Shown here: positions 31,857 through 58,862 of the stretch, piece after piece
Layout of the letters: the number at the start of each line of letters is the position of its first letter
Numbering within the stretch: position 1 is the first letter of the stretch
Assembly: GCA_016192145.1 (NCBI GenBank)
Contig: JACPUT010000001.1
Coordinates: 1 to 64,000, forward strand
Length of the DNA stretch: 64,000 nucleotides
Reading direction: 5' to 3'
Source: Acidobacteriota bacterium
Lineage (GTDB): Bacteria > Acidobacteriota > Holophagae > Holophagales > Holophagaceae
Translations under genes and position numbers: made by a program
The notes under the pieces: model-generated
The model's database searches: none
What the model was told of the DNA's origin: nothing
Seen by the model: the letters and a program-made list of their open reading frames with translations, nothing else

Positions 31857-31859
31857 GGT

Positions 31860-32570: not shown

Positions 32571-32595
32571 CCGGCGATCCCTCCCAACGGCGAGC

Positions 32596-35345: not shown

Positions 35346-35355
35346 GCGGGGACGA

Positions 35356-38850: not shown

Positions 38851-38864
38851 CGGATCCCTTTCGC

Positions 38865-42044: not shown

Positions 42045-42871
42045 GGGAGCAGCCCCAGTTCCCGGTGGGCGGCCGCGATCTCATCCGGGCTCGGCGTACG
42101 GTAGTGCCAGTTGTTGTCGTCCTCCATGAAGGAGACGCCCTTGCCCTTCACCGTGTGGGCGATGATCGCCAGGGGCCGCCCCTGGCCCATGCGATCCCGG
42201 CTGAGGGCGGCGGCGAGGGCCTCCAGATCGTGGCCATCCAGCTCGACCGTCTCCCAGCCGAAGGCCCGCCACTTCTCCGCCAAGGGGGCCAGGGCGAGCA
42301 CCTCCTCGCTGCGCCCCGTGGCCTGCCACTTATTGAAGTCAACGATCGCCGTGAGCGACTCCAGCTGCTGGACCGCGCCCATGAGGGCCGCCTCCCACAC
42401 GGAGCCCTCGTTGCACTCGCCGTCGCTGAGGAGGACGAAGGTGCGGTTGGGGATCCCCTTCAGCCGGGCGCCCAGGGCCATGCCCACGCCCATGGGCAGG
42501 CCGTGGCCCAGGGAGCCCGTGGCCGCCTCCACGCCGGGAACACCGTGGGCGGGGGGATGCTCGCCGAAGAGGCTGCCGTCATCGCCGTAGCCCTCCAGCC
42601 AGGCCTCGGGGAAGAAACCCCGCCAGGCGAGCACCTGGAAGAGGGCCGGGGCCGCGTGGCCCTTGCTGAGGATGAAGCGGTCCCGCTCCGGGGCCTTCGG
42701 GGCCGCTGGATCGATGCGCAGGATGCGCCCGTAGAGCACGGCGAGCATGTCCAGGCAGGAGAGGCAGGAGCCCAGGTGGGGCACCTGGGCCCGGCCCGAG
42801 ACCTCGATGACCCTGCCCCGCAGGCGGGCGGCCTCGCGGGCCAGGGTGTCCAGGGAGGCGGTGGGGGTCAT
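42041..42871 (-). CDS. Transketolase N-terminal subunit (two-subunit type)
   Basis: A 276-residue TPP-binding half of transketolase. HLGSCLSCLDMLAVLY near residue 31, FILSKGHAAPALFQVLA near 68, GSLGHGLPMGVGMALG near 115 and the TPP/metal motif LLSDGECNEGSVWEAAL to VDFNKWQATG (about 145-185) are all visible. It overlaps the C-terminal subunit gene by ATGA and the epimerase gene before it by ATGA, so both halves are made together. Confidence 0.92.
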   Translation of the reverse strand: MTPTASLDTLAREAARLRGRVIEVSGRAQVPHLGSCLSCLDMLAVLYGRILRIDPAAPKAPERDRFILSKGHAAPALFQVLAWRGFFPEAWLEGYGDDGSLFGEHPPAHGVPGVEAATGSLGHGLPMGVGMALGARLKGIPNRTFVLLSDGECNEGSVWEAALMGAVQQLESLTAIVDFNKWQATGRSEEVLALAPLAEKWRAFGWETVELDGHDLEALAAALSRDRMGQGRPLAIIAHTVKGKGVSFMEDDNNWHYRTPSPDEIAAAHRELGLLP

Positions 42872-43806
42872 AGGGCGAGCTGCTTCATGGTGGCCACGTT
42901 GTAGCACTGGTCGCTCACCTGCAGACTCCCCGCGCGGTAGGCCGCCACCACTTCCTCGATGGCATCGGCCACCCGGAACCGGGGGGCGAAGCCCGTGGCG
43001 AGGAGCTTGTCGGAGTTCAGGCGGTAGGAGCGGGGATCGTTGGAGGGCTGGACCTCGATCTCCGCGGGCACGACGGCCGTGACCATCCGCGCGATGGCGA
43101 GGATGGAGAGGTTCTCGAAGCCCGCGTTGAAGATGCCGGGGGCCCGATCGCCCAGGGCGAGGAAATGCTGGTACACGCGCACCATGTCCTTGAGGGTGAT
43201 GTTGGGCCGCACCTGGGCCCCGCCCAGGACCGTGATGTGGCCCTTCGTCAGGGCCTGGATGGTGAGCATGTTCACGGAGAGGTCCAGCCGCATCCGGGGG
43301 GAGACGCCACATACCGTGGCGGGGCGGATGCACTGGAGGGTGATGCGATCCCGGTAGCTGAGGAGGATGCGCTCGCTCACCATCTTCGTCTTGTTGTAGT
43401 CGGAGATGGGCAGGAGGGGCAGCTCCTCCGTGACTTGCGGTTCCTCGCTCACGCCGTACACGCTTCCCGAGCTGGCGTAGATGAACTGGGGCACGCGGGC
43501 CGCGATGGCCGCCTCCACGAGGCCCATGGTGGCGAGGGCGTTCACCTCCCAGGAGAGTTTGGGATTGAGGTCGCTGCAGGGATCGTTGGCCACATTGGCC
43601 AGGTGCAGCACCGCATCCTGGCTCGCGAAGGGCAGGGAGCCCGCGTCCCGCACGTCAGCCTGGATCACCGTGAGTGCCGGGTGGGGCTGCAGGTGGTTGC
43701 CGAACCACTGGGCGTCCACCACCGTCACCCGGTGGCCGTCGGCCAGCAGGGCCTCCGTGAGCCTGCTGCCGATGTAGCCGCACCCGCCGGTCAATAGGAT
43801 CTTCAT
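42868..43806 (-). CDS. NAD-dependent sugar epimerase/dehydratase
   Basis: A 312-residue extended SDR. NAD motif GGCGYIGSRL lies at residue 7, ASSGSVYG near 115 and catalytic Y-x3-K as YNKTKMVSE near 140. Substrate-binding segment PRSYRLNSDKL lies near 260. It probably epimerises or oxidises a nucleotide sugar. I choose the ATG at 43806 (GAGG six bases upstream); an ATG at 43818 overlapping the preceding stop as ATGA is an alternative that adds four residues. Its stop overlaps the transketolase N-subunit start. Confidence 0.88.
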   Translation of the reverse strand: MKILLTGGCGYIGSRLTEALLADGHRVTVVDAQWFGNHLQPHPALTVIQADVRDAGSLPFASQDAVLHLANVANDPCSDLNPKLSWEVNALATMGLVEAAIAARVPQFIYASSGSVYGVSEEPQVTEELPLLPISDYNKTKMVSERILLSYRDRITLQCIRPATVCGVSPRMRLDLSVNMLTIQALTKGHITVLGGAQVRPNITLKDMVRVYQHFLALGDRAPGIFNAGFENLSILAIARMVTAVVPAEIEVQPSNDPRSYRLNSDKLLATGFAPRFRVADAIEEVVAAYRAGSLQVSDQCYNVATMKQLAL

Positions 43807-43814
43807 GGGGGGCC

Positions 43815-44813
43815 TCATGGCTTGTGAACGTAGTCGAAGGGCTGACGGAGGATCTCATCCCGGTGGGTGGTGACCCAGTCCAGGGTCTCCTGGAGGCCCT
43901 GCTCCAGGGAGAGGTGGGCCTCCCAGCCCAGCTCCGCCTTGGCCTTGCGGCTGTCCAGGAGGTAGGCCGAGTCCTTGCCCGGGCGCTCGGGAGCCACGTC
44001 CACGGCCTCGGCGAAGGGGATGCCCATGCGCTCCGCGAGGCGCTCCACGAGGGACCGCACGGTGATGTTCTCCGGCGTGGAGAGGTGGAAGATGTCGCCG
44101 GGCCGGCCCTGGCGCATGGCCCGGAGGGTGCCCTCGGCCACGTCCCGGATGTGGATGAAGGAGCGCACGGAGACGCCGCCCCCGTGCAGCTGCAGGCGCC
44201 GGCCCGTGAGGAAGAAGAGGATCGTGCGGGGGATGATGCGGTAGAGCTGCTGGCCCGGGCCATAGACGTTGGCGGCCCGCGTGAACACGACGGGGAAGCC
44301 GTGGGTCCGCACGTAGGTCATGAGGCTTAAGTCCGCCGCCGCCCGGGAGACGGCGTAAGGCGTGCTGGGGTCGTAGACGGTGCGCTCCGCGATGAGGCCC
44401 TCGCAGCTGCCGTAGACCTCTGGCGTGGAGACGTGCAGGTACTTCTTGAGGAAGTCGCAGCGCCGCAGGCCCTCGTGGAGGCGGACGTTGGCCACGAGGT
44501 TCGTCTGCATCCAATGATCCGGATTGGCCCAGCTCTCGGCCACCATGCTCTGGGCCGCGAAGTTCACCACGTAGTCGGGCTTGAAGTCGTGGACGAGCTC
44601 CAGGATGGCGGGTAGATCCGTGTTCAGGTCCAGCTGGTGGAAGGCGAAGCTCCCGGTGCGGGGAGCTCCCTCCCAGGCATAGGACCGGAAGACGGGGTGC
44701 ACCTCCGGAGAGCGGCTGACCCCCACGACCGCGCAGCCCTCGGCCCGGGCCCGCGCCACGAAGTGGGTGCCGGAGAACGAGTTGCTGCCGATGATGAGGA
44801 TCTTGTCGGGCAT
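43815..44813 (-). CDS. NAD-dependent sugar dehydratase/epimerase, GDP-mannose 4,6-dehydratase-like
   Basis: A 332-residue extended SDR with NAD motif IGSNSFSGTHFV near residue 7 (altered spacing), NFAAQSMVAESW near 80, STPEVYGSCEG near 115, then YAVSRAAAD where the catalytic lysine of Y-x3-K is Arg. C-terminal SFIHIRDVAEG and RPGKDSAYLLDSRKAKAELGW are typical of 4,6-dehydratases. Lys-to-Arg at the active site may alter activity or reflect a natural family variant. The gene is coupled to the following epimerase and lies 14 bases after the SIS isomerase gene. Confidence 0.82.
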   Translation of the reverse strand: MPDKILIIGSNSFSGTHFVARARAEGCAVVGVSRSPEVHPVFRSYAWEGAPRTGSFAFHQLDLNTDLPAILELVHDFKPDYVVNFAAQSMVAESWANPDHWMQTNLVANVRLHEGLRRCDFLKKYLHVSTPEVYGSCEGLIAERTVYDPSTPYAVSRAAADLSLMTYVRTHGFPVVFTRAANVYGPGQQLYRIIPRTILFFLTGRRLQLHGGGVSVRSFIHIRDVAEGTLRAMRQGRPGDIFHLSTPENITVRSLVERLAERMGIPFAEAVDVAPERPGKDSAYLLDSRKAKAELGWEAHLSLEQGLQETLDWVTTHRDEILRQPFDYVHKP

Positions 44814-44827
44814 CGAAGTTTCGGGAT

Positions 44828-45397
44828 TCAAACGTTGGCCACGAGGGGAGGGTGGGCCTTGAGCCACTGCATGAGCATGTGCCCGATGGTGAGCTGGGCG
44901 TCCTCGCAGATCTGCATGTCATCGATGGCGACGTGGATGGCGTGGTCCGCAAGCTGGAGGCACTTGCCACCGGAGTAGCCCAGGATGGCGTAAGAACCCA
45001 GGCCCATGCGCTTGCCCGTCTCCAGGGCCCGCACGATGTTGGGGGAGTTCCCGCTGCCAGATAGGACGATGAGGACGTCTCCCGGCCGGGCCAGCACTTC
45101 CAGTTGCTTGGAGAAGATGGCCTCATAGGAGACGTCGTTGGCCAGGCAGGTCATTACGGCCTGGTTGGCGGAGAGGGCCTGCACCCGCATGCCCCCGAGG
45201 CCCGGGGAAATGCCGTAGAAGAGGTCGTTGGCGAGGTGAATGGCGTTGGCGGCGCTTCCGCCGTTACCGCAGATGAACACCTGGCGGCCCTCCACCCAGG
45301 CCTGACGCAGCACGTGGCCGAGCCGCTGCACCTCGTCCAGATTCAGGGCGTCGAGGGCCTTCCGGCTGTTGGCGAGGTACTGCTCGAAAGGTCCCAT
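44828..45397 (-). CDS. SIS domain sugar-phosphate isomerase, phosphoheptose isomerase (GmhA)-like
   Basis: A 189-residue SIS protein close in length to GmhA (about 192). The phosphate-binding CGNGGSAANAIHLANDLF near residue 42, the LSGSGNSPNIVRAL loop near 115 and the terminal TIGHML with the conserved histidine are present. The glutamate four residues after the first active-site histidine in GmhA is Asp here (HLAND). GmhA converts sedoheptulose-7-phosphate to heptose-7-phosphate; the same or a related ketose-aldose step is inferred. AAGGAG precedes the ATG at 45397. Confidence 0.83.
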   Translation of the reverse strand: MGPFEQYLANSRKALDALNLDEVQRLGHVLRQAWVEGRQVFICGNGGSAANAIHLANDLFYGISPGLGGMRVQALSANQAVMTCLANDVSYEAIFSKQLEVLARPGDVLIVLSGSGNSPNIVRALETGKRMGLGSYAILGYSGGKCLQLADHAIHVAIDDMQICEDAQLTIGHMLMQWLKAHPPLVANV

Positions 45398-45444
45398 GCG
45401 TGCTCCTTCGGGAATCAGGTGGGAAAGGGCGGAATCACCTGGGG

Positions 45445-47475
45445 TCAGGATGGGCCGGGGGCCACGCTGCGGTAGATGAGCTTGAGGTTCGAGCGCTGCA
45501 GCAGGCGGCCCATGCCCGTGGGTGTGTTCGCGTAGAGCTTGATCTGGTTCGCGATGTGACGCTTCTGGCCCTCGCTGTGGAAGAAGCGCCACTCGCCCGC
45601 CTGGGTGGCTAGGGGGAGGGTGTCGGGGTCCACCTTGAACCCCGCCGCCCGGATGGCCTCGAAATCGAACCGGAAGGACGCGTACCGTTCCCCCTCGGTG
45701 TCGGTGACGCAGTCCTCCTTGCGGAGCAGCGTGTAGGTCTTCAATTCCAGCAGGTAGGCCTCCACCCGGGGGGTGAGGCGCCCATTCACCTCCAATGTGG
45801 CGCGGATGGCTGTGAAGAGGAGGTCGCATAGGTCCCGGAACTCCCCGAGGAGGAGGGTCTTGTGCACGAGCAGTTCGTTGATGCCCAACTCACCGTCGAT
45901 GTAGCGCCCCACCACCTCCGGCGTGAGGACGAAACCCTTGGCCTCCTCGAAGGTGGCGAAGAGGTCCGAACCCGTCTGCTGGAGAAAGCCGTCGATGATG
46001 GCCGCGATTCGCCCCGTGCGCAGCTCCGGGTGGCCCTTCGTGTAGAGGAGGCAGTCGTAAACCGATACTTCCAGGGCCCGGCAAAGGGCGAAGACTTCCT
46101 CGAAGAGGGCGTTGTTGTAAAAGGTCTCCACCAGGAGGTTCATCTCCCGGCACTCCAGGTAGTCCGCGAAGCTCAGGGTGGCGTTGCCCACGATGATCTC
46201 CTCGATCTCCGAAACGGGGGTCGGCTCCCCCATGAGGTCGTAGATCCCCACGCAGCCAGGGATCACGCGGAATTGGGTGGCCAAACCGTACTGCGCCCGG
46301 GTGGGGCCCGAGGCCATCTCCGTGCCGCGGAGCAGCATGGCCTGGAACATCCGCATGTGGGTGACCCCCTGCTCCACGCCGAAGCGGAGGGACTCGAAGT
46401 GCTTGTCCCGGGAATCCCCGGGCAGGCCGAGGATGATCTCTGAGTGGGTCTTGCTGTTTTCCATGGTGTTGCCGTAGGTGACCAGATCCCGGTAGGCCTC
46501 GCGGCTGATGTTCTGGCGTTTGATGGCCTTGAGCACGTCCGGATCCGTGGACTGGAGGGAGGCGCCCAAGGTCCAAGCCCCATTGAGAATGCGGGCCACC
46601 TCGATGGTGCGCTCGGGGCGGTTCTTTCCGGCGGAGGCCGAGATGAGGAGGGGCCAGCCCGTCTCCCGCTTCACCTGGGCGATCTCGTCCGCCGTGCGCA
46701 GGTCCTCCGTGTACATGGCGAAATTGAGGTCCGTGATGATGAGCTCGTCCACGTTTTTCACGTGGCTGGCGATGTAGCGGATCTCCGCCCGGGTGCGCTC
46801 GGGGTCGAAGCGGGCGATCTTGTTCTTGGAAGTCAGCCCGTCCGCGCAAAAGGTGCAGGAAAAGGGACAGCCCCGGGTCGTCTCCAGCAGCGGCTGCAGG
46901 GGCTGGTCGAAGAAGGGGTCCAGCAGGCCTGTGAGGTAGGGGGAGGGGATACGGTTCACGTCGACGATGCGGGCGATCTCCCCGGAGATGAGGGCGCCCT
47001 GCTCCAAGTAGGTCGTGTTCGCCATGCGCCGGCCTTCGGATTTGAGGCGCCTGGCGTCGAAGCCCACCTCCTCCAGGTTTTGCACCAGGTCCACGAGACC
47101 CAGCTCGCCCTCCAGCTCGATGTAGAAGTCCATGGCGGGGCGGCCCGCGAGGAACTCCGCCTTCTCCGAGGCGAGGGTGGGGAAGTTGGGACCGCCAAAG
47201 ACGGTGACCACCCGGGGATCCAGGGCCTTGGCCCGGCGGGCGAAGGCGTAAGCCAGCTCGAAGTTCCAGCTGTAGTTGGAGAAGCAGAGGACCGTGGGCC
47301 GTTCGCGGGTGAGCACCTCGCTTAGCTCCTCCGGGAACTTGCACAGGCGGTAGGTAAAGGCGTCGCCCAGCTCCTGACGGGCGTAGGCCATGACGAAGCT
47401 CACGCCCAGGGGGAAGGTGGGGGCCCCGATGCCCTGGGCCGTGTGGGTGAGATCGGCGAAGACGAGGCTCCGCAT
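45445..47475 (-). CDS. Radical SAM protein with B12-binding-type N-terminus
   Basis: A 676-residue protein. Residues 15-150 have a B12-binding-domain-like Rossmann pattern (PTVLCFSNYSWNFELA, VVTVFGGPNFP). The radical SAM core follows with CPFSCTFC (C-x3-C-x2-C) near residue 202 and DLNFAMYTED and LQSTDPDVLKAIKRQN strands. An extended C-terminal domain of about 250 residues is unlike common families. No histidine of a D-x-H-x-x-G cobalamin motif is evident, so B12 may not be bound base-off. Possible roles are C-methylation or rearrangement of a sugar. GGAAGGAGGACG precedes the ATG. Confidence 0.85.
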   Translation of the reverse strand: MRSLVFADLTHTAQGIGAPTFPLGVSFVMAYARQELGDAFTYRLCKFPEELSEVLTRERPTVLCFSNYSWNFELAYAFARRAKALDPRVVTVFGGPNFPTLASEKAEFLAGRPAMDFYIELEGELGLVDLVQNLEEVGFDARRLKSEGRRMANTTYLEQGALISGEIARIVDVNRIPSPYLTGLLDPFFDQPLQPLLETTRGCPFSCTFCADGLTSKNKIARFDPERTRAEIRYIASHVKNVDELIITDLNFAMYTEDLRTADEIAQVKRETGWPLLISASAGKNRPERTIEVARILNGAWTLGASLQSTDPDVLKAIKRQNISREAYRDLVTYGNTMENSKTHSEIILGLPGDSRDKHFESLRFGVEQGVTHMRMFQAMLLRGTEMASGPTRAQYGLATQFRVIPGCVGIYDLMGEPTPVSEIEEIIVGNATLSFADYLECREMNLLVETFYNNALFEEVFALCRALEVSVYDCLLYTKGHPELRTGRIAAIIDGFLQQTGSDLFATFEEAKGFVLTPEVVGRYIDGELGINELLVHKTLLLGEFRDLCDLLFTAIRATLEVNGRLTPRVEAYLLELKTYTLLRKEDCVTDTEGERYASFRFDFEAIRAAGFKVDPDTLPLATQAGEWRFFHSEGQKRHIANQIKLYANTPTGMGRLLQRSNLKLIYRSVAPGPS

Positions 47476-47490
47476 GGCGTCCTCCTTCCG

Positions 47491-48387
47491 CTAGACCTTC
47501 GTGACGGGTTGGGTGATCCCCCGGCCGATGTGGTCGACGAGGATGGGGAGCTTGTCCCGCACGAGGATGCGGGGTTCCCACCCCGTGCACCGCCGAGCCT
47601 TGGTGTTATCGAAGGCGAAGCCGAAGTCCCCCCCGGGGGCGGATTCGATGGGGGCCTGGGGGTTGGCCCGCTGCACGAACTCCAGGAGCGAGATCAGGTT
47701 GGCCTCTCCTCCGCCAGCGTGGAATTTCTGGCCGAAGGCGCGCTTGGCCACGATGCCCTCCATGAGGCGGCCCAAGTCGTCGATATGGAGGGGATCCCGA
47801 AACTGGAGGCCGCCGTTCGTGAGGGTGAGGGGTCTGCCTTGGGTGGCCGAGCGCACGAGTGACACCATCCAGTTGCCCCCGGGGTGATCGAAGTCCGTGT
47901 AGCAGGTGGTGAGGCGGATGACGGCGCTCTCCGGGTGGGATTCGGAGATGAACTCCGCCACGATCTTCGATTTCCCGTAAAAGTTGAAGGGCGCGTAGGG
48001 GGCCGTCTCGTCCACGAGGAAGCGGGGGCGCAGGCCGTGCGGCGTCTCCAGCACGTCCTCCTCGCGGTAGACGGGGCCCAACACTTCCCGGGTGGACATC
48101 TGAATCCAGGGGATGCCGCTTCCCTTGAGGATGCGGGCCAAGTGCCGCGCCCCGCCCACATTGATTTCATCCGTGGGCTCCCCCATGAGGAAGACGGCCG
48201 ACTTGCGATCCGCCATCACCGAGAGGTTGATGAGCAGCTCGACCCCCGAGCGGGCGAGGAAGTGCGCGTCCAGCGTGAACAGGTCCTCGGCCCGGTCCCA
48301 GCCGATGACCGCGTGCCCTTGGGAGGCCAGGTAGGCGTGGAGGCCCCGCCCCAGGTACCCCTCGTGTCCGATGAGCAGGATCTTCAT
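47491..48387 (-). CDS. NAD-dependent epimerase/reductase (sugar nucleotide)
   Basis: A 298-residue extended SDR with GHEGYLGRGL near residue 7, STREVLGPVY near 98, catalytic Y-x3-K as YGKSKIVAE near 138 and FRDPLHIDDLGRLMEG near 205. The short length and RmlD-like features suggest reduction or epimerisation of a keto-sugar. The ATG overlaps the stop of the SDR gene before it (TGATG). Confidence 0.86.
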   Translation of the reverse strand: MKILLIGHEGYLGRGLHAYLASQGHAVIGWDRAEDLFTLDAHFLARSGVELLINLSVMADRKSAVFLMGEPTDEINVGGARHLARILKGSGIPWIQMSTREVLGPVYREEDVLETPHGLRPRFLVDETAPYAPFNFYGKSKIVAEFISESHPESAVIRLTTCYTDFDHPGGNWMVSLVRSATQGRPLTLTNGGLQFRDPLHIDDLGRLMEGIVAKRAFGQKFHAGGGEANLISLLEFVQRANPQAPIESAPGGDFGFAFDNTKARRCTGWEPRILVRDKLPILVDHIGRGITQPVTKV

Positions 48388-49145
48388 CACATGCCTCCGC
48401 CATCCACGCCGACGATGGCGCCAGCCATGAACGCCGCGTAGTCCGAGCAGAGGAAGGCCACCACGGGGCCGATGTCCGAAGGCTGCCCCAGCCGTTGGAT
48501 GGGCAGGTGCTCCTTGTAGTAGGCATCCAGGGCCGCAGGATCCTCTTGTGCCAGCTTCGCGAAGTGCCGCCCCTCGGAGAAGATGGCGCCGGGCGCCACG
48601 GCGGTGAGCACCACGTTGTGCCGTGACACGTCGCGGTTCACGGATTTCACGTAGCCATCGAGCGCGCACTTGGCGGAGACGTAGGGGGCGTAGCCGTTGT
48701 GGGTGCGAGTGGAGAGGGTGCTGAGGTGCACGACCCGGCCCCACTTGGCAGCCACCATGGCGGGGAGGAAGATGCGATTCAGCTCGTGGGCGATGCCCAC
48801 GTTGAACTGCCACACCTTCCGCCAATCCTCCGAGGAGGCCATGGCCTGGAAAACGCCGTGGGAGCCGCCCAGGTTGTGCACGAGGATGGGCGGGTCGCCC
48901 GCCTCTGCCTGAATGCCCGTGACTAGGTCGGAAATGCCACCCTCGGCCGTGAGGTCCAGGGCGAAGCAGCGGTGGGCGTCGGCGCCACCGGGCAATTCCG
49001 CCCGCACCGCCTCGAGGGCCTCCCGGTTTCGGGCCACGAGGAGGACCCTCGCCCCCTCGGCCGCCAAGGCCTGCGCGATCCCCTTCCCGATGCCCCGGCT
49101 CGCGCCGGTCACCAGGGCCCATCTGCCTCGGATTCCCAAATCCAT
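48387..49145 (-). CDS. SDR family oxidoreductase
   Basis: A 252-residue classical SDR with the cofactor loop TGASRGIGKGIA near residue 13, NLGGSHG near 88, the active-site serine in VVHLSTLSTRTHNG near 140, Y-x3-K as YVSAKCALDGY near 153, and C-terminal FMAGAIVGVDGG. Substrate unknown; the operon suggests a keto intermediate of a sugar or its acyl side chain. GGGGAGG lies upstream. It follows the giant glycosyltransferase gene by 2 bases. Confidence 0.87.
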   Translation of the reverse strand: MDLGIRGRWALVTGASRGIGKGIAQALAAEGARVLLVARNREALEAVRAELPGGADAHRCFALDLTAEGGISDLVTGIQAEAGDPPILVHNLGGSHGVFQAMASSEDWRKVWQFNVGIAHELNRIFLPAMVAAKWGRVVHLSTLSTRTHNGYAPYVSAKCALDGYVKSVNRDVSRHNVVLTAVAPGAIFSEGRHFAKLAQEDPAALDAYYKEHLPIQRLGQPSDIGPVVAFLCSDYAAFMAGAIVGVDGGGM

Positions 49146-49147
49146 CG

Positions 49148-52100
49148 TCACGGCCTCCCCATCGAAGTCGTCCCGCTTTGAGCAAGTTCCGGGCCCGAGC
49201 CCGGGAGGGCCTCCAACCGGGCCTGGCACCACGCCCGCAGCCCCGCCCGACGCACGGATGCGCACGAAGGGCCCCTGAACAGGTCCACCGTCACGCCGGG
49301 CACGTGCAGGATGGGCCCTCGGGCCGCCAGACGGGCGACGAAGGCGCGGTCCTCCAGCAGGGGAAGTTCCTCATCGAAGCGCTCTCCCAGTTCCCGGTGG
49401 TGGATCAGGGCCGAGAGGGGCGGGGTTTCCACCGGCTCCGGAATGGGGTCCGAACCAACCTGGAGGGCCGTGTCCGCATAACCGACCCGGTGACCGGAGC
49501 CCGAGAGGGCGACCGTTAGCCGCGCGAGGTGGTCGGGTCGCCAAAGGTCGTCGTCGTCGAGGTAGGCGATCCACCGGCCCCGGGCCTGGGCGAGGCCCCG
49601 GTTGCGGGCGGCGCCTTGGCCCCGGGGGTGCTCCAGCTCGATGAGGTGGACGGGCAGCCCCGCGAGCGCAGCCGCAGCGACGACGGGCTCGGCCTGGCCC
49701 CCGCCATCGTCCACGACGATCACCTCCAGGGGGGGCAAGGTCTGCTGGCGGATGGATTCCAAGGCGCGGGCAAGGGCCTCGGGGCGCCGGTAGGTGGGCA
49801 CGATGACAGAGACGTTCGGGGCCGCGACGGCAGCCATGGGCTGCCCCCAAGAGGGCTCTGGGCTCGCCGGGGGTGGGACCTCCGTCCAGCCGCCGAGCCG
49901 CGACCGGGCGTCCATGAGGCGCTGCCCGTTGGGACCCACGAGGTTCCAGGCCGCACGCGATCCGGGGATCCACTGGAGGGTGGTGCAGGGGCGCAGGAGC
50001 TCCACCCAGTCCTCGGCCCGATCCACGAGGGCCACGTCCGGGAAGGCCTCTCGCCCCGTGCGTTCCACGACTTCCAGCACTCGGGCCTGGGCCTCCTCGA
50101 CGGAGAGACCCCCAGCGGCCTTCGGGTCCAGTGCCAGGGCCAGGCAAACGGGATCGCCGGGGGCGAAGGCCTCCAGATAGGCGAGGAGAACTTCCACCCA
50201 GGCCGCGCCCGTCCAAACGGGCTCGTGGAGGAACATCTCCCGCAGGCCTGGGCGGGGCGCCGCCTCGGCGGCGAGGAGATCTGCCACTTTGGCCGCGATG
50301 CGCTGTCGGCACTCGGGGAAGAGGTCCCGCCTCTCGAAGGTGATGTTGGCGCCGCTGCTGCGCCACCGCACCTCCGCCGTGGCTTTGGGGATGTGGAGGA
50401 AGTCCCAGCGCCGGGACAGGCGGATCCAGTACTCCCAATCCTCCAGCACGGGCAGGGACTCGTCGTGGGGCCCCACCGCCTCCCAGCAGGCGCGGGCGTG
50501 CATCACGTTGTTCACCGGCGTGAGGTTGTCGCGCAGGAAGTGCTCCCGGTCGAAGGCGTTGGACATGGCCAGTTCCCGGCTGAGCACCACCCATTCGCCC
50601 TTCCGGAGTTCTTCCACGGCCCGCATGGAATCCGTGTAGGCCACCTGGGCACCGGTCCGTTCCAGCGCTTCGGTGAGCACCTGAAGGTGGTCCGGATAGT
50701 AGAGATCGTCGTCATCCAGGTACGCGATCCAGCGCCCCCGCGCCGCCCGGATCCCCGTGTTGCGGGAGCCCGCCTGCCCGCGGGGGCGCGGGTGTTGGAG
50801 GAGCGTGATTTCCAGGCCCTTGGCCCGGGCGGCCGCCACCACCGCCGCCGGGTCCCCGCCTCCGTCGTTGACGACCACCACCTCGAAGGAACGGAAGGTT
50901 TGCGGGGCCAGGGAGTCCAGGGCCCGGGCCAGGAACTCGGGCCGGTCCTTGGTGGGCATGATCACGGACACCGCGGGCGCCGGGCGGGGCGGAAGCACCT
51001 CCGCGGGCAGCACGGGGCGCAACAACCCGGTGAGGGCCCGATCGGCCATGAGCTGGAAGCCCCGCTCCCCCACCCGATGGCGGCGTTCCGGGTCACCCAC
51101 GGCGGAGCGGCAGGCTTCCACGAGCCCGTCGTAAGTGGCGAGGATCAACCCCTCCCGCAGGCTGGGCTCCACCTCGGTGGCGGCATGGCATTCGGCCACC
51201 ACGGCCTTGCGGTTGGCCAGCAGGTAGGACACGCGCACCAGCTCGAAGATGCTGCTGTCGAAGAAGTGGAGGTTGAGCACCACCTTGGATCGCGCGATGA
51301 GGGCGTCCCGCTCCGCGCCGTAGACGTTGAAGGCCCGGTGGACCTTGAGCCCCGCGGCCTGGAGCGCTTCCAGGATCTGGATGCGGCGGGGATTCGTGGA
51401 GCCGTAAAAGAGCACATCGATATCCTGCTCCTGCGCCTCCGGGATCCGGGTGAGCACCGGATCGTAGCCGATGGGCAGCAGCCGGGGCTCGCCCTGCATC
51501 CCGGCCTTGGCCAGGATCTCAAGGTTGCGGGCGCTGTAGTCCCAGATCTCCAGGGTCGCGGAGCGCCGCACGAGGCGCTCCCGCAACTCGCGGTTCCGCT
51601 CGTCCATCTGCTCCAGGTTGTAGAGGACGGTGCCCTTGGGCAGCTTGGCCAAGCCCTGCTCGTCCATCAGATGCCAGCCCAGGAGCACGTTCAGGGCCCC
51701 CGCCTTCAGTTCGTTCTCCGCCAGATCCGTCGGCACGCCCAGGGACTTCAGGGCCGACTCCAGGCTCTGGGCCACTTCCCGGAAGGCCTCGGAATGGGCA
51801 TAGCCTTCGGGCCGGATGAGGACGATGCGGACGGGGGTCCGCGCGGCGCTGATGGCGGGCTTCGGAGAGGCTGCGGGCCCTTCCACGGGTCGGGCTGCTT
51901 CCAGGGTGCGGCCCACCACGTTCACCAGATAGCGACGGAGTTCCCCGGAGATGCGGGTCTCACCCCCGGCCTCCAGACGGCGCAGCACCTCCTCCATCCG
52001 GAGCAGGGGATCCTGGGGGATGAACGGGGTCTGCGCCCCGGTACCCAGGCGGGCCCCCCACTCCTTCAAGAAACCGGGCACGTCGGACACCTGCGTGAAG

Positions 52101-54175
52101 GAGCGCTTCACCCCGTCCACCACCGGCTTCCGATATTCCTCCGGGCACTGCGATTCGACCCATTCCAGGAGGCGGTCCAGCAGGGCCGTGTTCGGGCCCA
52201 CGCCGTGGTAGAGGAAGGCGTTCAAATTGGAAGCCACCTGGAACACGCTGTTGATGGTGCTGATGATCTCGGGCTGGAACCGCAGATCCGCCCAGGGGAA
52301 GAGCTCCTCGAAACGGTGGGTGTTGAGGAACTCGTGGCCCGCGCGGGCGGAATCGAAGAATCCGGCCATGGGGAAGGTCTGGGTTCCCTGGGCGCCGTGG
52401 ACGCGGGTCACCGCCGTGCGGTGATCCAGGTAGTGGAGCCGCGTCTGCACGCTCAGGCGCAGCCAGAGATCCAGATCCTGCGCGTACTTCAGCTCGGGCT
52501 TCCAGCCGCCGGAGGCCTGGAGCAGGGACCGCTGGATGCAGATGGTGATGCCGTTGATGTAGTTGGCCTCCAGGAGGGCCAGGGTCTGCACCTCGAAGGT
52601 GGGCAGCGAGACCTGCCGCCGCTCGGGCATGGGCCGCTTCTCCCCCGTCTCCTCGAAGAGCTGGGAGAAGTTGCTGTAGAAGAACCGGGCCTTGGGCAGC
52701 TCCGCGATGGCCGAGGCGAAGGTCTCCAGCGCATCGGGTTCGAAGAGGTCGTCGGAGGAGAGCCAGCACACCCAATCGCCCGTGGCCTGCGCCAGCGCGG
52801 CGTTGAGGGCCGAACCCACGCCCCCGTTGGCCTGGTGGAAGGCCCGGATGCGGGGATCCCGGGCGGCATAGCCCTCCAGCACCTCCCGGGTGCCATCCGT
52901 GGAGCCATCGTTGACCACCACGGCCTCCCAGTTTTCATAGGTCTGGGCCCGCAGGCTATCCAGGGTGGCGGGCAGGAAGTGGGCCTGATTGTAGGTGGGC
53001 ACGAGCACCGTGAATTTCGGGCCTTGGCCCGGCTCCTTCCCGTTCCCGACCGCCCCCCGTGCGCTCGTTTCCAGGCGGGGCAGCAGGCTCTTGGCCAGGC
53101 GATCCAGGATGGTGCCCACGGTGCCGCAGGTCGCATGATCGATGAGGTTGTTGTACTTCTGGGTGAGGCTGGAACCCGCGTACCAGTGGATGCCGATGCA
53201 TCCCTCCGGCAGCGAGGCGGGATCCCCCGGCTCGTGGATCTTGTGGATCTCCCGCCAATCGAAGGGGTAGACGAGCTCCATGGGGAGGTTGTGCACCGGC
53301 ATGGCCGGATGGGCCTTCCGGATGGCCGCGACATCGGGGTAGAGGCGGTTGAGGAGGTGGGAACCGATGCTCTGGTAGTCGGACATGTCCAGGGCCGCGA
53401 TGGCCTTCTCTTTCACCGCCTCGAAGAGGGGCGCGCCGGGGGCCGAGAAGTAGAACCCGATGATGTGGTGCCCTTCATGGATGCATACCCCGGCCTCGAG
53501 ATCCCGGTGCTTCGCCACGTTCACGGGCGCCGCCCGCAGCGGCTTGCAGAAGAGGATGTCCGTGTCGCAGTAGGCGCCGCCTTCCCTCGTGAGGATGTGC
53601 CATCGGAAGAAGTCGGACTTGTAGGTCTCGGGCGCCCCCTCGATCTCCGGGAAGGCGGAGAAATCCACCTCCCGCACGCGGATGCCCGGCAGCTGGTAGA
53701 GCAGGGCGGAGTAGTCCCGCCCGTGGTAGGAGGTTCCCTCGTAGGCCTCCCCGGCCACCCAGGCGGCCTCTCCCTGGTGCACCGCCGAAGGCACGTAGAG
53801 GTTCACTTCCCAATCGGGGTTGAAGAGCCGGAAGGAGGCGATGCTGAGGTAGCGGAGGAAGGAGGTGCGCTCGTTCCCCCAGTAGAAGTGCGCCTTCCGG
53901 GGGATCTTCGCGAGGTGCCAGGGGCGCTCCCAGCCCGCTTGAGCGAGTACCTCCCGCGGCTTCCCCGCCCGAAGCATCGTTTCCAGCTCCAACAGCTTGG
54001 GGTGGGTGGGAAAGTGCATCCTCCCTCGCCCGGTGGCCTGGCGGGCCCCCTCCAGATCCCCGGACCGCAACGCCGCTTCGATGGCTTGGAGCAGGCGCTC
54101 AGGATAGAGGGGCTCCACCCGCAGGCCCTGGGGGCGGGGCATGGGCGAGGCGGGGGCGGTTTTTCGGGAGGCCAT
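49148..54175 (-). CDS. Giant multi-module glycosyltransferase (GT32-like, three GT2-like and a CgeB-like module)
   Basis: A 1675-residue cytoplasmic fusion. Residues 85-365 look like a GT32/capsular-synthesis enzyme (KAHFYWGN; DXD as YCDTDILF near 205). GT2 module A spans about 386-620 (FTVLVPTYNQ, NDGSTDGT, WLSSDDLFEPDA). Residues 780-1050 resemble the CgeB/GT1 family (DVLFYGSTNPRR, VVLNLHFFDSS). GT2 module B starts near 1067 (VSVIMPTKDRPEF; AYLDDDDLYYPDH). A helical block of about 110 residues shared with the next GT protein follows near 1340. GT2 module C starts near 1450 (VSVIVPTYRRPEA; AYLDDDDLWRPDH). Such fusion suggests stepwise assembly of a repeat unit. AGGA lies upstream of the ATG at 54175. 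Confidence 0.88.
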   Translation of the reverse strand: MASRKTAPASPMPRPQGLRVEPLYPERLLQAIEAALRSGDLEGARQATGRGRMHFPTHPKLLELETMLRAGKPREVLAQAGWERPWHLAKIPRKAHFYWGNERTSFLRYLSIASFRLFNPDWEVNLYVPSAVHQGEAAWVAGEAYEGTSYHGRDYSALLYQLPGIRVREVDFSAFPEIEGAPETYKSDFFRWHILTREGGAYCDTDILFCKPLRAAPVNVAKHRDLEAGVCIHEGHHIIGFYFSAPGAPLFEAVKEKAIAALDMSDYQSIGSHLLNRLYPDVAAIRKAHPAMPVHNLPMELVYPFDWREIHKIHEPGDPASLPEGCIGIHWYAGSSLTQKYNNLIDHATCGTVGTILDRLAKSLLPRLETSARGAVGNGKEPGQGPKFTVLVPTYNQAHFLPATLDSLRAQTYENWEAVVVNDGSTDGTREVLEGYAARDPRIRAFHQANGGVGSALNAALAQATGDWVCWLSSDDLFEPDALETFASAIAELPKARFFYSNFSQLFEETGEKRPMPERRQVSLPTFEVQTLALLEANYINGITICIQRSLLQASGGWKPELKYAQDLDLWLRLSVQTRLHYLDHRTAVTRVHGAQGTQTFPMAGFFDSARAGHEFLNTHRFEELFPWADLRFQPEIISTINSVFQVASNLNAFLYHGVGPNTALLDRLLEWVESQCPEEYRKPVVDGVKRSFTQVSDVPGFLKEWGARLGTGAQTPFIPQDPLLRMEEVLRRLEAGGETRISGELRRYLVNVVGRTLEAARPVEGPAASPKPAISAARTPVRIVLIRPEGYAHSEAFREVAQSLESALKSLGVPTDLAENELKAGALNVLLGWHLMDEQGLAKLPKGTVLYNLEQMDERNRELRERLVRRSATLEIWDYSARNLEILAKAGMQGEPRLLPIGYDPVLTRIPEAQEQDIDVLFYGSTNPRRIQILEALQAAGLKVHRAFNVYGAERDALIARSKVVLNLHFFDSSIFELVRVSYLLANRKAVVAECHAATEVEPSLREGLILATYDGLVEACRSAVGDPERRHRVGERGFQLMADRALTGLLRPVLPAEVLPPRPAPAVSVIMPTKDRPEFLARALDSLAPQTFRSFEVVVVNDGGGDPAAVVAAARAKGLEITLLQHPRPRGQAGSRNTGIRAARGRWIAYLDDDDLYYPDHLQVLTEALERTGAQVAYTDSMRAVEELRKGEWVVLSRELAMSNAFDREHFLRDNLTPVNNVMHARACWEAVGPHDESLPVLEDWEYWIRLSRRWDFLHIPKATAEVRWRSSGANITFERRDLFPECRQRIAAKVADLLAAEAAPRPGLREMFLHEPVWTGAAWVEVLLAYLEAFAPGDPVCLALALDPKAAGGLSVEEAQARVLEVVERTGREAFPDVALVDRAEDWVELLRPCTTLQWIPGSRAAWNLVGPNGQRLMDARSRLGGWTEVPPPASPEPSWGQPMAAVAAPNVSVIVPTYRRPEALARALESIRQQTLPPLEVIVVDDGGGQAEPVVAAAALAGLPVHLIELEHPRGQGAARNRGLAQARGRWIAYLDDDDLWRPDHLARLTVALSGSGHRVGYADTALQVGSDPIPEPVETPPLSALIHHRELGERFDEELPLLEDRAFVARLAARGPILHVPGVTVDLFRGPSCASVRRAGLRAWCQARLEALPGSGPELAQSGTTSMGRP

Positions 54176-54183
54176 GGGAATTC

Positions 54184-55680
54184 CTAGGAGGCCAGTCGAC
54201 GGGCGAGGCGGAGGGAGGCCGGGGTTTCCGTGCCGGGGCGGGCCCCGGGAAAGGGCAGGCGATGGATGCGGTGGAAGGCACGTAGGTGGGGCAGCAGTTG
54301 GTCGGCCTCGTCCACGAGCAGGACGTCCGGGAAGGCCTCCAGGCCCATCCGCTGGGCGAGGTCGACCACGGCGGCCCCCACCTCGTCGGAGGAGGGGGCC
54401 CCTTCCAAGGTGGGATCCAAGAGGAGGATGAGGCCCACTGGGTCCCCGGCGCGGAAGGCCGTGAGGTAGCCGAGGAGGAGCTCCGCCCAAGCCTCGCCGC
54501 CGAAATCCGGTTCCAGGAGGAAGGCCTCGCGCAAGGCTACGGGAGCCTCCGGGGCGGGCGTCGGAGACCCCAGCCGCAGGTACCGATCCAGCAATCCGGC
54601 GCTGTGAGCGTCCCCCGCGGTGGCCGCCGCCGCCCGGCGGGCGGCCATGAGGGCGCGGGCGTCCCGGGGATGGTAGGGGCGCGCCTCTCGGCGGGCCATG
54701 GCACCCACGGCGTTCCGCAGTGAGGCCGGGGCCGCACCCAGCTGGGCCTCCAGGGCCTGAAGCCCCGCCACGAGGGAATCCCGATAGACCACCGGGCAAC
54801 CCGTGAGGAGCCACTCGCCCAGGCGCTCCAAAAGGGCCGGCTCCGGGCCCACGCCGGCGTACATGGCGGCATTGAGATTCAGGGCCGCGCCCAGGGCCGA
54901 TTGCAGGGCCTCCGTGATGCCATCGCCCGTCGTGAGATCCAGGTGGGGGAAGAGGGCCTCGAAGGGATGGGTGTTGAGGAAGTCAAGGCAGGCCCGGGCG
55001 GAGTCGAACAGGCCCGCCTCTGGAAAGCCCAGGGTGCCCTGCCCCGTGTGGATGCGGGTGATGCAGGTGCGATGGTCCAGATAGCGCAGCTCCGTGAGGG
55101 CGCTCATGCGGAACCACATGTCCATGTCCTGGGCGTAGCGCAGCTCCTGCTTGAATGCGCCCGCGCGATCGAAGAGCCGCTTGCGTACGCAGATGCTGAT
55201 GCCGTGGATCATGTTGCCGTGCAGGAAGGCCACCGTCTGCTGGCCCTTGGGGGGCAGGGTCTCGGCGCGCCCCGGCGGGCCCGGGCGCCGCTCCCCCGTC
55301 TCGTGCACGAGCTCCGTGAAATCGCTGTGGAAGAAGGCCACCTCGGGTGCTGCCGCCATGGCCGCCGCGAACACCTGGAGGGCATCCGGTTCGTAGAGGT
55401 CATCGGAGGAGAGCCAGCCCACCCATTCGCCCCGCGCCTCCCCCAAGGCCGCGTTGAGGGCCGTGGCCACACCCCCGTTGGGTTTGTGGAAGGGGAGGAT
55501 CCGTGGATCCCGGGCCGCGAAGTCCGCCAGCACCGCGCGGGTGCCGTCGGTTGAGCCGTCGTCGACCACGACCGCTTCCCAGTCGTCGAAGGTCTGGGCC
55601 CGGAGGCTCTCCAGGCACTCGGGCAGGTAACCGGACTGGTTGTAGGTGGGGACGAGGATGGAGAAGCGGGGGGCGCTCAT
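54184..55680 (-). CDS. GT2 family glycosyltransferase with extra C-terminal module
   Basis: A 498-residue enzyme. The GT-A domain (residues 5-240) has FSILVPTYNQ, VDDGSTDGT, NGGVATALNAALG, the metal site in WLSSDDLYEPDA near 95 and MWFRMS near 195. The remaining half contains a helical region and, near 395-485, a module (REAFLLEPDFGGEAWAELLL, GLEAFPDVLLVDEAD) matching one in the giant neighbour (49148-54175). The GT2 half is also similar to module A of that protein. Overlapping ATGA with the 2-epimerase gene. Confidence 0.88.
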   Translation of the reverse strand: MSAPRFSILVPTYNQSGYLPECLESLRAQTFDDWEAVVVDDGSTDGTRAVLADFAARDPRILPFHKPNGGVATALNAALGEARGEWVGWLSSDDLYEPDALQVFAAAMAAAPEVAFFHSDFTELVHETGERRPGPPGRAETLPPKGQQTVAFLHGNMIHGISICVRKRLFDRAGAFKQELRYAQDMDMWFRMSALTELRYLDHRTCITRIHTGQGTLGFPEAGLFDSARACLDFLNTHPFEALFPHLDLTTGDGITEALQSALGAALNLNAAMYAGVGPEPALLERLGEWLLTGCPVVYRDSLVAGLQALEAQLGAAPASLRNAVGAMARREARPYHPRDARALMAARRAAAATAGDAHSAGLLDRYLRLGSPTPAPEAPVALREAFLLEPDFGGEAWAELLLGYLTAFRAGDPVGLILLLDPTLEGAPSSDEVGAAVVDLAQRMGLEAFPDVLLVDEADQLLPHLRAFHRIHRLPFPGARPGTETPASLRLARRLAS

Positions 55681-56780
55681 GCCTCCTCCCGGCCTGGCGC
55701 GCCAGGGCGATGACCCGTGAGGATCCGCACCACCGTCTCGCTCACGTTCCTGCGGAGGTACTCCACGGGGGGCTCCCAGTCCCGATCGGATTCCAGGGCC
55801 AGGCGCACGCAGGCCTGGATGTGCCCGGGGTCGGAGCCGCTGATGAGGTTGCTGCCGCACTCCACGGTCTCGGGCCGCTCGGTGACGTCGCGCAGGGTGA
55901 CGTTGGGCACCTTGAGCAGGCAGCACTCCTCCTGCACGGTGCCGCTATCGCTGAGCACGCACGCCGCGTGGGTCTCCAGGGCCAGGAAGTCGAAGAAGCC
56001 GAAGGGGGGCAGGAAGCGGAGGTCCGCCCCGCCCGTGTCGGTGCCGAAGGCCTCCAGCCGCGCCTTGGTGCGGGGGTGGGTGCTGATGATGACGGGCAGG
56101 CCGTATTCGCGTTGCACCCGGACGAGGGCCTCCGTGAAACGGGCCAGCCGCGCGGGCTCATCCACGTTCTCCGCCCGGTGCAGGGTCACGAGGAAATACC
56201 CATTCCTCGAAAGCCGCAGGTTTTCGAGGATGCCCGACGCCTCGATCCGCGCCTGGTGATGCCGGATCACCTCCCAGATGGGATTGCCCGTCACCAGGAC
56301 CCGGGCTCCGGGGATCCCTTCGCCCAGGAGGTTCCGGCGGCTGTTCTCCGTGTAGGGCAGGAGCACGTCGCTGCTGTGGTCGATGATGCGGCGGTTCACC
56401 TCCTCCGGCACGCGATCGTCGTAGCAGCGGTTGCCCGCCTCCATGTGGTAGACGGGGATGCCCATGCGCTTGGCGACGATGGCGCCGAGGCCGCTGGTGG
56501 TGTCGCCCAGGATGAGGATTCGATCCGGCCGGTGCTCCGCGAAGAGGCGCTCGCACGCGGAGAGGATGGTGCCCACCTGCTCCCCGAAGGAACCCGTGGC
56601 GCCCAGGTAGGCGTCCGGCTGGCGCACGCCCAGCTCTTCGAAGAAGAGGTCCTTGAGGCGGGGATCGTAGTTCTGGCCCGTGTGCACGAGGACGTGCTCA
56701 CAGACGGCGTCCAGCCTCGCGATGACGAGGCTGAGGCGGATGATCTCGGGGCGCGTGCCGAGGAGCGTGAGGATCTTCAT
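55677..56780 (-). CDS. wecB: Non-hydrolysing UDP-N-acetylhexosamine 2-epimerase (WbjD/CapG-like)
   Basis: A 367-residue epimerase with GTRPEIIRLS near residue 8, TGQNYDPRL, GDTTSGLGAIVAKRMG, MEAGNRCYDDRVPEEVNRRI near 115, THPRTK and SDSGTVQEECCLL near 285. The MEAGNRCYDDRVPEE version of the active-site motif is typical of the FucNAc/QuiNAc-type 2-epimerases (WbjD, CapG, WbvD) rather than of classical WecB. With the two genes upstream it completes a UDP-N-acetyl-6-deoxy-L-hexosamine pathway. AGGAGG precedes the ATG at 56780. A 127-base gap with hairpins separates it from the dehydratase gene. Confidence 0.9.
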   Translation of the reverse strand: MKILTLLGTRPEIIRLSLVIARLDAVCEHVLVHTGQNYDPRLKDLFFEELGVRQPDAYLGATGSFGEQVGTILSACERLFAEHRPDRILILGDTTSGLGAIVAKRMGIPVYHMEAGNRCYDDRVPEEVNRRIIDHSSDVLLPYTENSRRNLLGEGIPGARVLVTGNPIWEVIRHHQARIEASGILENLRLSRNGYFLVTLHRAENVDEPARLARFTEALVRVQREYGLPVIISTHPRTKARLEAFGTDTGGADLRFLPPFGFFDFLALETHAACVLSDSGTVQEECCLLKVPNVTLRDVTERPETVECGSNLISGSDPGHIQACVRLALESDRDWEPPVEYLRRNVSETVVRILTGHRPGAPGREEA

Positions 56781-56907
56781 GGGGCCCCTCCTGGGCCCCA
56801 CCCCTTCGGGGCCGTGCTTTGCTTGGTGGGCCTTCGCTCCATCGAACGGGCGCATTGCGCCCTCCCGCTCGCGGGGCTCGCGGAGATGGAGCCTCCCTGC
56901 TTCGGCC
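56781..56907. other. Intergenic segment with hairpins inside the polysaccharide operon
   Basis: This is the only gap above 100 bases within the long minus-strand operon. It contains GGGCGCA-T-TGCGCCC (56848-56862, a perfect 7-base-arm palindrome) and GGCCCC/GGGGCC arms around 56794-56814. It may attenuate or process the transcript between the dehydratase and epimerase genes. There is no U-tract or recognised riboswitch. Confidence 0.4.
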
Positions 56908-57981
56908 TCATGCGAGCAGCTCGTTGCCTTCCACCAGCACGGCTTCGCCGGGCATCAGGTGGTGTTTCTTGAGGAGGTCGATGGTGCCCTGGAGATCCAC
57001 CACGTCGTCGCCGGAGGAGTACTCCTTCAGCAGCGTGGTGCCCTTGCCCTGGGCGGCCATCTTGTTGTGGAGCTCGGGCAACACGGGAAGGATCACGTAG
57101 AACTCGCCGCGGGCCACGGTGCGGTGGCACTCCTCCTCCGAGACGAGGATCTCGTCCATCTTCTCGCCGGGGCGGATGCCCGTGACCTGGATGGGGATAC
57201 CGCGGTCGCCCACGAGGGCCTGGGCGATGTTCATCACCGTGGCCGCCGGGGCCCGGGGGATGTAGGTCTCACCGGGGTGGCCGCCTTGCAGCGCCGCGAA
57301 GACCGTGTCCACGGCGTGGTTGAGGCTCAGGAGGAAGCGGGTCATCTCCGGCACGGTGACGGTGACGGGGCCGCCGCTGGCGATCTGATCATGGAAGAGG
57401 GGCACCACGGAGCCGCGGGATGCCAGGACGTTGCCGTAGCGCACGCAGACGAAGCGGGTGTGGGGCACCTCCACGTTCGCGCTCGTGAAGATGCGCTCCT
57501 GCAGGGCCTTGGTCATGCCCATCACGTTCACGGGCTTGCAGGCCTTGTCGGTGCTCACGCCGATGACGGATTGCACGGGATAGGCGTGCTCCTTGAGGGC
57601 CCGCACGATGTTGGCGGGGCCCACGCAGTTGGTGAGCAGGGCCTGCTCGGGGAAGTACTCGCAGATGGGCACCTGCTTGAGGGCCGCGGCGTTGAACACC
57701 ACGTCCGCATCCCGCAGGGCGGCGCAGACGTCGGCGTAGCTGCGCACGTCGCCGATGCGGAAGGCGAGGCTGCGCTGGAAGTTGGAGTAGATCACCTCGT
57801 CCGTGGTCACCTTGCGGTTGAGGTAGGAGATGCGCATGGCGTGCTGCTTGGCCTCGTCGCGGCTCATGACCGTGACGCGCCGGGGGTTGCCCAGTTCACC
57901 CGCGAGGATGCGCCGGACCAACGTCTTGCCGAGCGACCCGGTGCCGCCGGTGATGAGGACGCTCTTGTTTTCGAGAATCAT
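56908..57981 (-). CDS. UDP-GlcNAc 4,6-dehydratase/5-epimerase (WbjB/CapE/WbvB-like)
   Basis: A 357-residue extended SDR of the inverting 4,6-dehydratase group. It has GGTGSLGKTLVRRI near residue 12, VMSRDEAKQHAMR near 38, NAAALKQVPICEYFP near 97, STDKACKPVNVMGMTKAL near 143 and GEKMDEILVSEEE near 275. Met takes the place of the usual catalytic Tyr in the M-x3-K (MGMTK), a trait of the CapE/WbjB branch. It converts UDP-GlcNAc to 4-keto-6-deoxy intermediates including L-sugar forms. Its ATG overlaps the reductase stop (ATGA). Confidence 0.9.
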   Translation of the reverse strand: MILENKSVLITGGTGSLGKTLVRRILAGELGNPRRVTVMSRDEAKQHAMRISYLNRKVTTDEVIYSNFQRSLAFRIGDVRSYADVCAALRDADVVFNAAALKQVPICEYFPEQALLTNCVGPANIVRALKEHAYPVQSVIGVSTDKACKPVNVMGMTKALQERIFTSANVEVPHTRFVCVRYGNVLASRGSVVPLFHDQIASGGPVTVTVPEMTRFLLSLNHAVDTVFAALQGGHPGETYIPRAPAATVMNIAQALVGDRGIPIQVTGIRPGEKMDEILVSEEECHRTVARGEFYVILPVLPELHNKMAAQGKGTTLLKEYSSGDDVVDLQGTIDLLKKHHLMPGEAVLVEGNELLA

Positions 57982-58862
57982 GGCCTTGCCTCCCGGCCGC
58001 GGATCTCCGCGGCGAGTTCATCCAGGGACGCCTCCCAGCTGGGGGGGCGATAGGTGGTGCGGGCGAAGAGGGCCGAGGCATCCAGGCTGCGGTCGCAGCT
58101 GAAAGCGTCGTCCCTTTCGATGTCGAGGGCCAGCCCCAGGCGGGCCTTGAGGCCCATGAGGAGGTCGAATTTGCTGATGGGCGCCATGGCCAGGTGCCAG
58201 CGGCCCTCCACGGGCTCGGGCTGCGTCACCAGGTGCTCGATGGCCCGAGCCAGCTCCGCCGTGATGAAGCCCGTGAAGATGGCGCGGGTGAACCCCCTCA
58301 CCGGGCCCTTCTGGGCCAGGAACCACTCCACGAGGCTCGATTTGCGGCCCAGCTCCAGGCCGATCATGGAGGTGCGCAGCGTGAGGCAGCCCGGGGCCTC
58401 CACCTCGCCCAGCAGCTTGGAGCGGCCGTAGAGGTCCGGCGGATCCGGGAGGTCTTGCTCCGTGTAGTTCCCCTTGCGACCGGAGAAGACGCAATCGGTG
58501 CTGAGGTGCACCAGACGGGCCCCGCCGAGGCGGCAGAGCTGGGCCAGGCGGTGGGGGTAGATGCTGTTGATGGCGAGGCTGGGCAGGGCGTCGTGGGCCT
58601 CGGCGCGCTGCTTCACGATGCCGGCGGCGTTCACCACCAGATCGGGGCGAAGCTCCGCCAGCAGATCCGTGAGGGGTTCCAGGGCGGTCAGGTCCAGCCC
58701 GTAGCGGGCGGCGGCGGCCAGATCCCGGGGGAGGCCCGCATAGGCCCCCCGCTCCCGGCGCAGGGTGGGGATCACGTCGTGATGCCCCTTCCAGCTTTCG
58801 AAGAGGCGGTGGCCGAGCATGCCGTCCCCTCCGATGACGAGGATCTTCAGCTTCGGCCGCAT
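57978..58862 (-). CDS. RmlD-like sugar nucleotide reductase (WbvR-like)
   Basis: A 294-residue reductase of the RmlD superfamily with GGDGMLGHRLFE near residue 11, NAAGIVKQRAEAH near 78, STDCVFSGRKGNY near 120 and Y-x3-K as YGRSKLLGE near 145. It lacks the C-terminal cupin of WbjC/CapF, so it matches the WbvR type, which reduces the 4-keto group on the route to UDP-N-acetyl-L-quinovosamine. First gene of the long minus-strand operon. GGCAGGAGGGG lies upstream of the ATG. Confidence 0.88.
   Translation of the reverse strand: MRPKLKILVIGGDGMLGHRLFESWKGHHDVIPTLRRERGAYAGLPRDLAAAARYGLDLTALEPLTDLLAELRPDLVVNAAGIVKQRAEAHDALPSLAINSIYPHRLAQLCRLGGARLVHLSTDCVFSGRKGNYTEQDLPDPPDLYGRSKLLGEVEAPGCLTLRTSMIGLELGRKSSLVEWFLAQKGPVRGFTRAIFTGFITAELARAIEHLVTQPEPVEGRWHLAMAPISKFDLLMGLKARLGLALDIERDDAFSCDRSLDASALFARTTYRPPSWEASLDELAAEIRGREARP

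Follow-up and report, generated by a model that had tools for sequence, protein, structure and literature searches.

A single gene on the minus strand of the 64,000-nucleotide Acidobacteriota sequence analysed here (family Holophagaceae; hereafter the window) encodes a 1675-residue protein with five glycosyltransferase (GT)-like modules from three families, which we consider most likely to be a soluble, non-processive multi-step transferase, attaching a series of different sugars one after another to a single acceptor. The gene belongs to a 24-gene sugar operon, and the entire operon occupies a variable slot, bounded in Holophagaceae by a sigma-54 activator gene and mutL (Table 1). GTs that combine two or three modules are already well known (PMC11231755, PMC5207161, PMC7826918), and the protein described here, which we call the giant, is an unusually large example of this polymodular kind. 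Least expected are the union of modules from three families in a single protein and the recurrence of the slot, the slot being the more novel part compared with the fusion itself. The genome that contains the window is 3.8 Mb long and 98% complete.

Table 1. Coordinates in the window of the giant gene, its modules, the surrounding operon and the flanks of the slot.
Feature	Residues	Position	Strand	Basis
Sigma-54 activator gene, left flank		27464..30481	+	kept in filled and empty slots alike
Rest of operon, sugar genes and TPR protein		30549..49112	-	
Polymodular glycosyltransferase gene, 1675 aa	1-1675	49148..54175	-	stop-free frame, Pfam, codon model
Short TPR-like helical N-terminus	1-90	53906..54175	-	helices 24-79 in a low-to-middling-confidence AlphaFold model; sequence reading
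GT32-type module	91-370	53066..53905	-	Pfam Gly_transf_sug above cut-off; motif positions
GT2a	384-610	52346..53026	-	SSDD 473-476, base D567; Pfam; AlphaFold model
Helical segment B2	611-768	51872..52345	-	comparison with adjacent gene; AlphaFold model
CgeB-like GT-B module	775-1058	51002..51853	-	predicted GT-B fold; relatives at 45-55% identity
GT2b	1066-1296	50288..50980	-	DDDD 1154-1157, ED 1245-1246; AvpGT sequence and fold matches
Segment D2	1300-1430	49886..50278	-	recurs C-terminally in other Holophagaceae GT proteins
GT2c	1452-1655	49211..49822	-	DDDD 1540-1543, ED 1608-1609; AvpGT match, model, tree
Adjacent paralogous gene, GT2 + B2 + D2		54184..55680	-	identity comparison, tree
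Trio of FnlC-like (WecB-type epimerase), FnlA/PseB-type dehydratase and RmlD-type reductase genes		55677..58862	-	
mutL, right flank		60751..62532	-	sequence start MAKIRVLSDQVANQIAAGEVVERPA typical of MutL

Reading frame, modules and active-site signatures

The giant had been described in the initial annotation as one uninterrupted frame, and this is confirmed: translation from 54175 to 49148 yields 1675 residues with zero stops, and a codon model trained on the window's other genes, with the giant left out, ranks this frame highest of the six in each 100-residue block. The start ATG at 54175 has AGGA ahead of it and follows the stop of the upstream gene by 8 bp; the longest formal open reading frame begins farther upstream, at 54814, and both codon score and ribosome-binding site support 54175 as the start. 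A sequencing or assembly artefact that joined separate genes is a conceivable source of so long a frame, and one delta-proteobacterial MAG (L012) does have its CgeB-like and GT2 genes separate and adjacent. We nevertheless regard such an artefact as extremely improbable, given that a single codon-supported frame crosses every module junction and that Geothrix rubra and several MAGs have other giant fusions, which start with the same CgeB-like module.

From N- to C-terminus the protein comprises a TPR-like segment, a GT32-type module, GT2a, B2, the CgeB-like module, GT2b, D2 and GT2c. The original count of five GT-like modules stands, with B2 and D2 as further segments missing from it. The proposed GT32-like enzyme is upheld by a Pfam match to Gly_transf_sug, DXD included, at residues 184-213 and above cut-off (E = 4.5e-5 within the whole protein and 6.7e-6 for the module alone); the DXD lies in YCDTDILF (202-209), and GIHWYAGS (328-335) provides a C-terminal HxW-like motif. 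Relatives of this module are scarce: besides itself, one marginal match was found in 247 genomes of the phylum and none among plasmids, and none of four pattern matches in viral contigs was confirmed. The three GT2-like domains that had been proposed are likewise recovered by Pfam (PF00535, E = 6e-95), carry DXD and base motifs and have confident models. In GT2a, D475 and D567 are invariant across 22 aligned sequences, while GT2b and GT2c match AvpGT (9jma) by sequence (E = 2e-24 and 3e-22, respectively) and both retain DDDD and ED when aligned to it, the distance from DXD to base being shorter in GT2c than in GT2b. DXD-type motifs are thus intact in all four GT-A modules and the catalytic-base Asp in all three GT2 modules, and by these signatures four of the five modules look intact. 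Intact DXD or metal-binding residues in at least four modules had been named in advance as support for a processive multi-enzyme, and four of five is the number found, judged from sequence alone.

AlphaFold gave confident models of GT2a (pLDDT 68-98 by block), the CgeB-like module, GT2b (about 93) and GT2c (about 85), and poor ones of D2 and of the GT32 module, whose low-confidence model, built from one sequence, has pLDDT below 50 over most of its length. The fold matches of GT2b in VIA-align include AvpGT (Z = 27.1, range 26-27), K4CP (Z = 26.2) and similar GT-A enzymes, and the predicted structures place the GT2 modules near K4CP, heparosan synthase and AvpGT in fold; fold likeness to known enzymes does not prove function.

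The remaining module had been assigned as CgeB/GT1-like. Its match to Glyco_trans_1_2 (PF13524) reaches E = 0.014 and 15.8 bits against a cut-off of 25, and its predicted fold is a two-Rossmann GT-B fold: VIA-align placed residues 15-296 of the second AlphaFold model on GT-B enzymes, with PimA (2gej) at Z = 20.2 over 273 residues and TarM at Z = 20.0. The module is better stated as nearer, in the model, to GT4-type GT-B enzymes such as these two than to GT1. The GT4 motif EX7E was not found in the module, either in its sequence (FELVRVSYLLANRKAVVAE) or in the alignment with its relatives: a single conserved Glu lies in FELVRVSY, with no second Glu eight residues on. By the EX7E criterion the module would not be filed under GT4, and it could be inactive or acceptor-binding.

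This non-canonical motif, the shortening of GT2c and the nature of B2 and D2, in neither of which Pfam detects a catalytic signature, are what might be expected of a partly decayed fusion, with two or three working modules and the others turned into binding or scaffold domains. We consider such decay unlikely, as the complete set of DXD motifs and base Asp residues in the GT-A modules argues against it, as do the conserved residues of the CgeB-like module, which are common to its relatives. B2 and D2 would most likely serve as structural or acceptor-binding segments. The sequence pattern of D2 had suggested a truncated GT-B half, an assignment that we did not adopt given an empty Pfam search and a poor model.

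A probable sugar-supply operon and the proposed reaction

The operon runs from 58862 to 30549, with all 24 genes in the same direction, gaps of at most 127 bp and 4-bp overlaps at about half of the gene junctions. Its genes look like sugar supply. The FnlC-, FnlA- and RmlD-like trio at its head we take, from knowledge of these families, to be a possible source of UDP-L-FucNAc. Downstream of the giant are SDRs, epimerases, a B12 radical-SAM C-methyltransferase, a GmhA-like isomerase, a split transketolase, a kinase, two NDP-sugar C-methyltransferases, an HldE-like protein, a nucleotidyltransferase and a TPR protein, among which the GmhA-, HldE- and nucleotidyltransferase-like genes are compatible with activated heptose synthesis. 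Three of these genes merit separate description. The radical-SAM enzyme (45445-47475), encoded alongside the two NDP-sugar C-methyltransferases, is B12-dependent and KedN5-like; the HldE-like protein (32596-34092) has its domains reversed, nucleotidyltransferase first and PfkB kinase second; and the last gene of the operon (30549-31856) encodes N-terminal TPRs and a C-terminal part, its searches against Pfam, NCBIfam and the PDB returning weak matches to TPRs only; its product may be another transferase or may serve to recognise the acceptor.

The only recognisable GT genes of the operon are the giant and its adjacent paralogue. Because four of the giant's five GT-like modules have an intact DXD, and because the operon offers no other recognisable GT besides the adjacent gene, it plausibly does the work of several transferases; the earlier suggestion that it substitutes for several absent enzymes is plausible to that extent. 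Under the multi-step reading, each catalytic module would add about one sugar, giving up to five from the giant, and the adjacent GT2 gene would contribute a sixth. The surrounding operon would supply the nucleotide sugars, L-FucNAc, a heptose and C-methylated sugars probably among them. We infer, in this scheme, that all modules are active, that they share one growing oligosaccharide, and what the sugars and their order may be.

Known enzymes provide partial precedents. In the Fap1 glycosylation cluster of Streptococcus parasanguinis, the two GT domains of dGT1 act sequentially on a protein-linked glycan (PMC5207161), and a companion paper describes a helical binding domain (PMC5063993), which B2 of the giant may parallel; dGT1 differs in having two domains (DUF1792 and GT-A) and a known acceptor, where the giant has five modules. 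The chlorovirus PBCV-1 protein A111/114R has three consecutive GT domains of about 300 residues, proposed to add three different sugars (PMC7826918); unlike the giant, it is viral, has three domains and uses a different acceptor. The O-antigen enzymes WbdA, WbbB and WbbM of Klebsiella and E. coli are polymodular, with one GT module per linkage type (PMC11231755), and share with the giant the placing of multiple GT modules on one polypeptide, although theirs are two or three polymerising modules as against five; they work alongside an ABC exporter and in many cases a coiled-coil ruler, and the giant's operon shows neither.

The initial annotation had envisaged a processive multi-enzyme, and we see no sign of polymerisation. 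A processive polymerase would use its modules in alternation to extend one chain into a long polysaccharide of repeat units, in the manner of WbdA and the chondroitin and heparosan synthases, and this reading has in its favour that polymodular polymerases are known (PMC11231755) and that the fold of the GT2 modules resembles that of K4CP, heparosan synthase and AvpGT. The common GT-A fold is, however, uninformative on processivity, and a set of five modules drawn from three families points to a heterogeneous oligosaccharide. Within the operon we found no flippase, polymerase, ABC transporter or priming transferase, and no recognisable chain-length ruler, terminator or multi-span membrane protein; membrane-like stretches among its products amount to one borderline segment, in an SDR. 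The lack of a recognisable ruler, terminating enzyme, ABC transporter or Wzx/Wzy pair weighs further against polymerisation, and we judge a processive polymerase to be distinctly improbable.

For the multi-step transferase that we favour, candidate acceptors would be a protein that receives its glycan in the cytoplasm, ahead of export, or a lipid-linked core begun elsewhere. An operon free of export genes is compatible with cytoplasmic protein glycosylation, as in Fap1, and equally compatible with export genes elsewhere in the genome, which a lipid-linked acceptor would require. Only one priming-type transferase was detected in the genome, and it sits on another contig. Flagellin was considered as the acceptor and set aside for want of positional support, the three flagellin-like genes of this genome all lying on other contigs. 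In Geothrix-group loci, a flagellin gene does stand no more than about 2 kb from D2-bearing giants (L132:2507-8780, with three GT4 domains, and L133:7011-13284), with fliD close by, which suggests flagellin glycosylation there.

Proposed assembly of the fusion and the slot beside mutL

The adjacent gene is related to the giant along its length, its GT2 being 60% identical to GT2a, its B2 38% and its D2 49%; among all loci fetched, B2 is present outside the giant in this gene only. A tree of 150 GT2 domains joins GT2a to the GT2 of the adjacent gene (support 1.0) and makes GT2b and GT2c sisters (0.975), the next relative of that pair, with weak support (0.595), being the GT2 gene of the delta-proteobacterial MAG that directly adjoins a separate CgeB-like gene. 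Since GT2a is sister to the adjacent gene and GT2b and GT2c are duplicates, the giant looks to have been assembled in place. In the simplest reading, a gene with the GT2-B2-D2 layout of the adjacent gene would have been duplicated, a CgeB-GT2b cassette inserted between B2 and D2, GT2b duplicated to give GT2c, and the GT32 module added at the front. The reverse, in which the adjacent gene derives from the giant by loss of its middle part, is possible.

We compared the slot across the 44 Holophagaceae genomes in which a single contig carries both flanks. The flanks are less than 1 kb apart in 30 of the 44 (26 within 300 bp and 4 within 1 kb) and 2.5-36 kb apart in the other 14, proportions that are estimates, as the genomes are a sample of the family and draft contigs restrict the count. 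The cargo is glycan-related in most of the 14 filled slots; that of G292 extends over 36 kb and has many sugar genes in common with the giant's operon, and at least one filled slot, that of G008, and possibly also that of G294, has cargo without recognised glycan genes (L148, L153). A CgeB-like gene near a mutL-like gene also occurs in G152 (L126:1749-6428), a genome assigned to a different family of the phylum; this may reflect an older slot or a misassigned G152 bin.

Long fusions of this type had been called rare, which needs qualifying, as giant fusions of GT modules, with or without methyltransferases, recur in the same slot of relatives. One of 1209 residues carries GT2, GT4 and D2, and a shorter one of 757 residues carries a CgeB-like module, a methyltransferase and TylF. 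The 1631-residue protein of Geothrix rubra (L010; CgeB-like, GT2, GT4, methyltransferase, GT2, methyltransferase) and a 2416-residue MAG protein (L011; CgeB-like, GT2, GT4, methyltransferases, GT9, WbsX) share with the giant the position beside mutL and a CgeB-like module, 53-56% identical, followed by GT2; they differ in that this module is N-terminal and in having GT4 and methyltransferase modules (with GT9 and WbsX in L011) and neither GT32 nor D2. Outside the slot, a gammaproteobacterial MAG encodes a 1488-residue protein with four GT2-like stretches, and a Bacteroidetes MAG a 1538-residue protein (L072:3197-7810) in which a methyltransferase and two GT2 domains are joined to PF01973 (MptE-like, with the fold of the Maf flagellin transferase). 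A literature search on narrow terms for proteins with four or five GT domains brought up exostosin papers only.

If all five modules share one acceptor, the giant would be a one-polypeptide multi-step oligosaccharide synthase, useful in enzymatic synthesis, and would allow a clean test of module order as a predictor of sugar order. More tentatively, and short of calling it likely, we suggest that Holophagaceae may swap whole glycan-assembly lines at the junction of the sigma-54 activator gene and mutL, with module-shuffled giant polypeptides of GT, methyltransferase and linker parts setting a heterogeneous surface or protein glycan, and with the five-module protein a complete one-polypeptide oligosaccharide synthase. 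A slot with many empty sites provides a natural before-and-after comparison for the exchange of glycan genes as whole sets between bacteria, in a phylum with a little-studied glycobiology, and hints that Holophagaceae change their glycans by swapping such cassettes.
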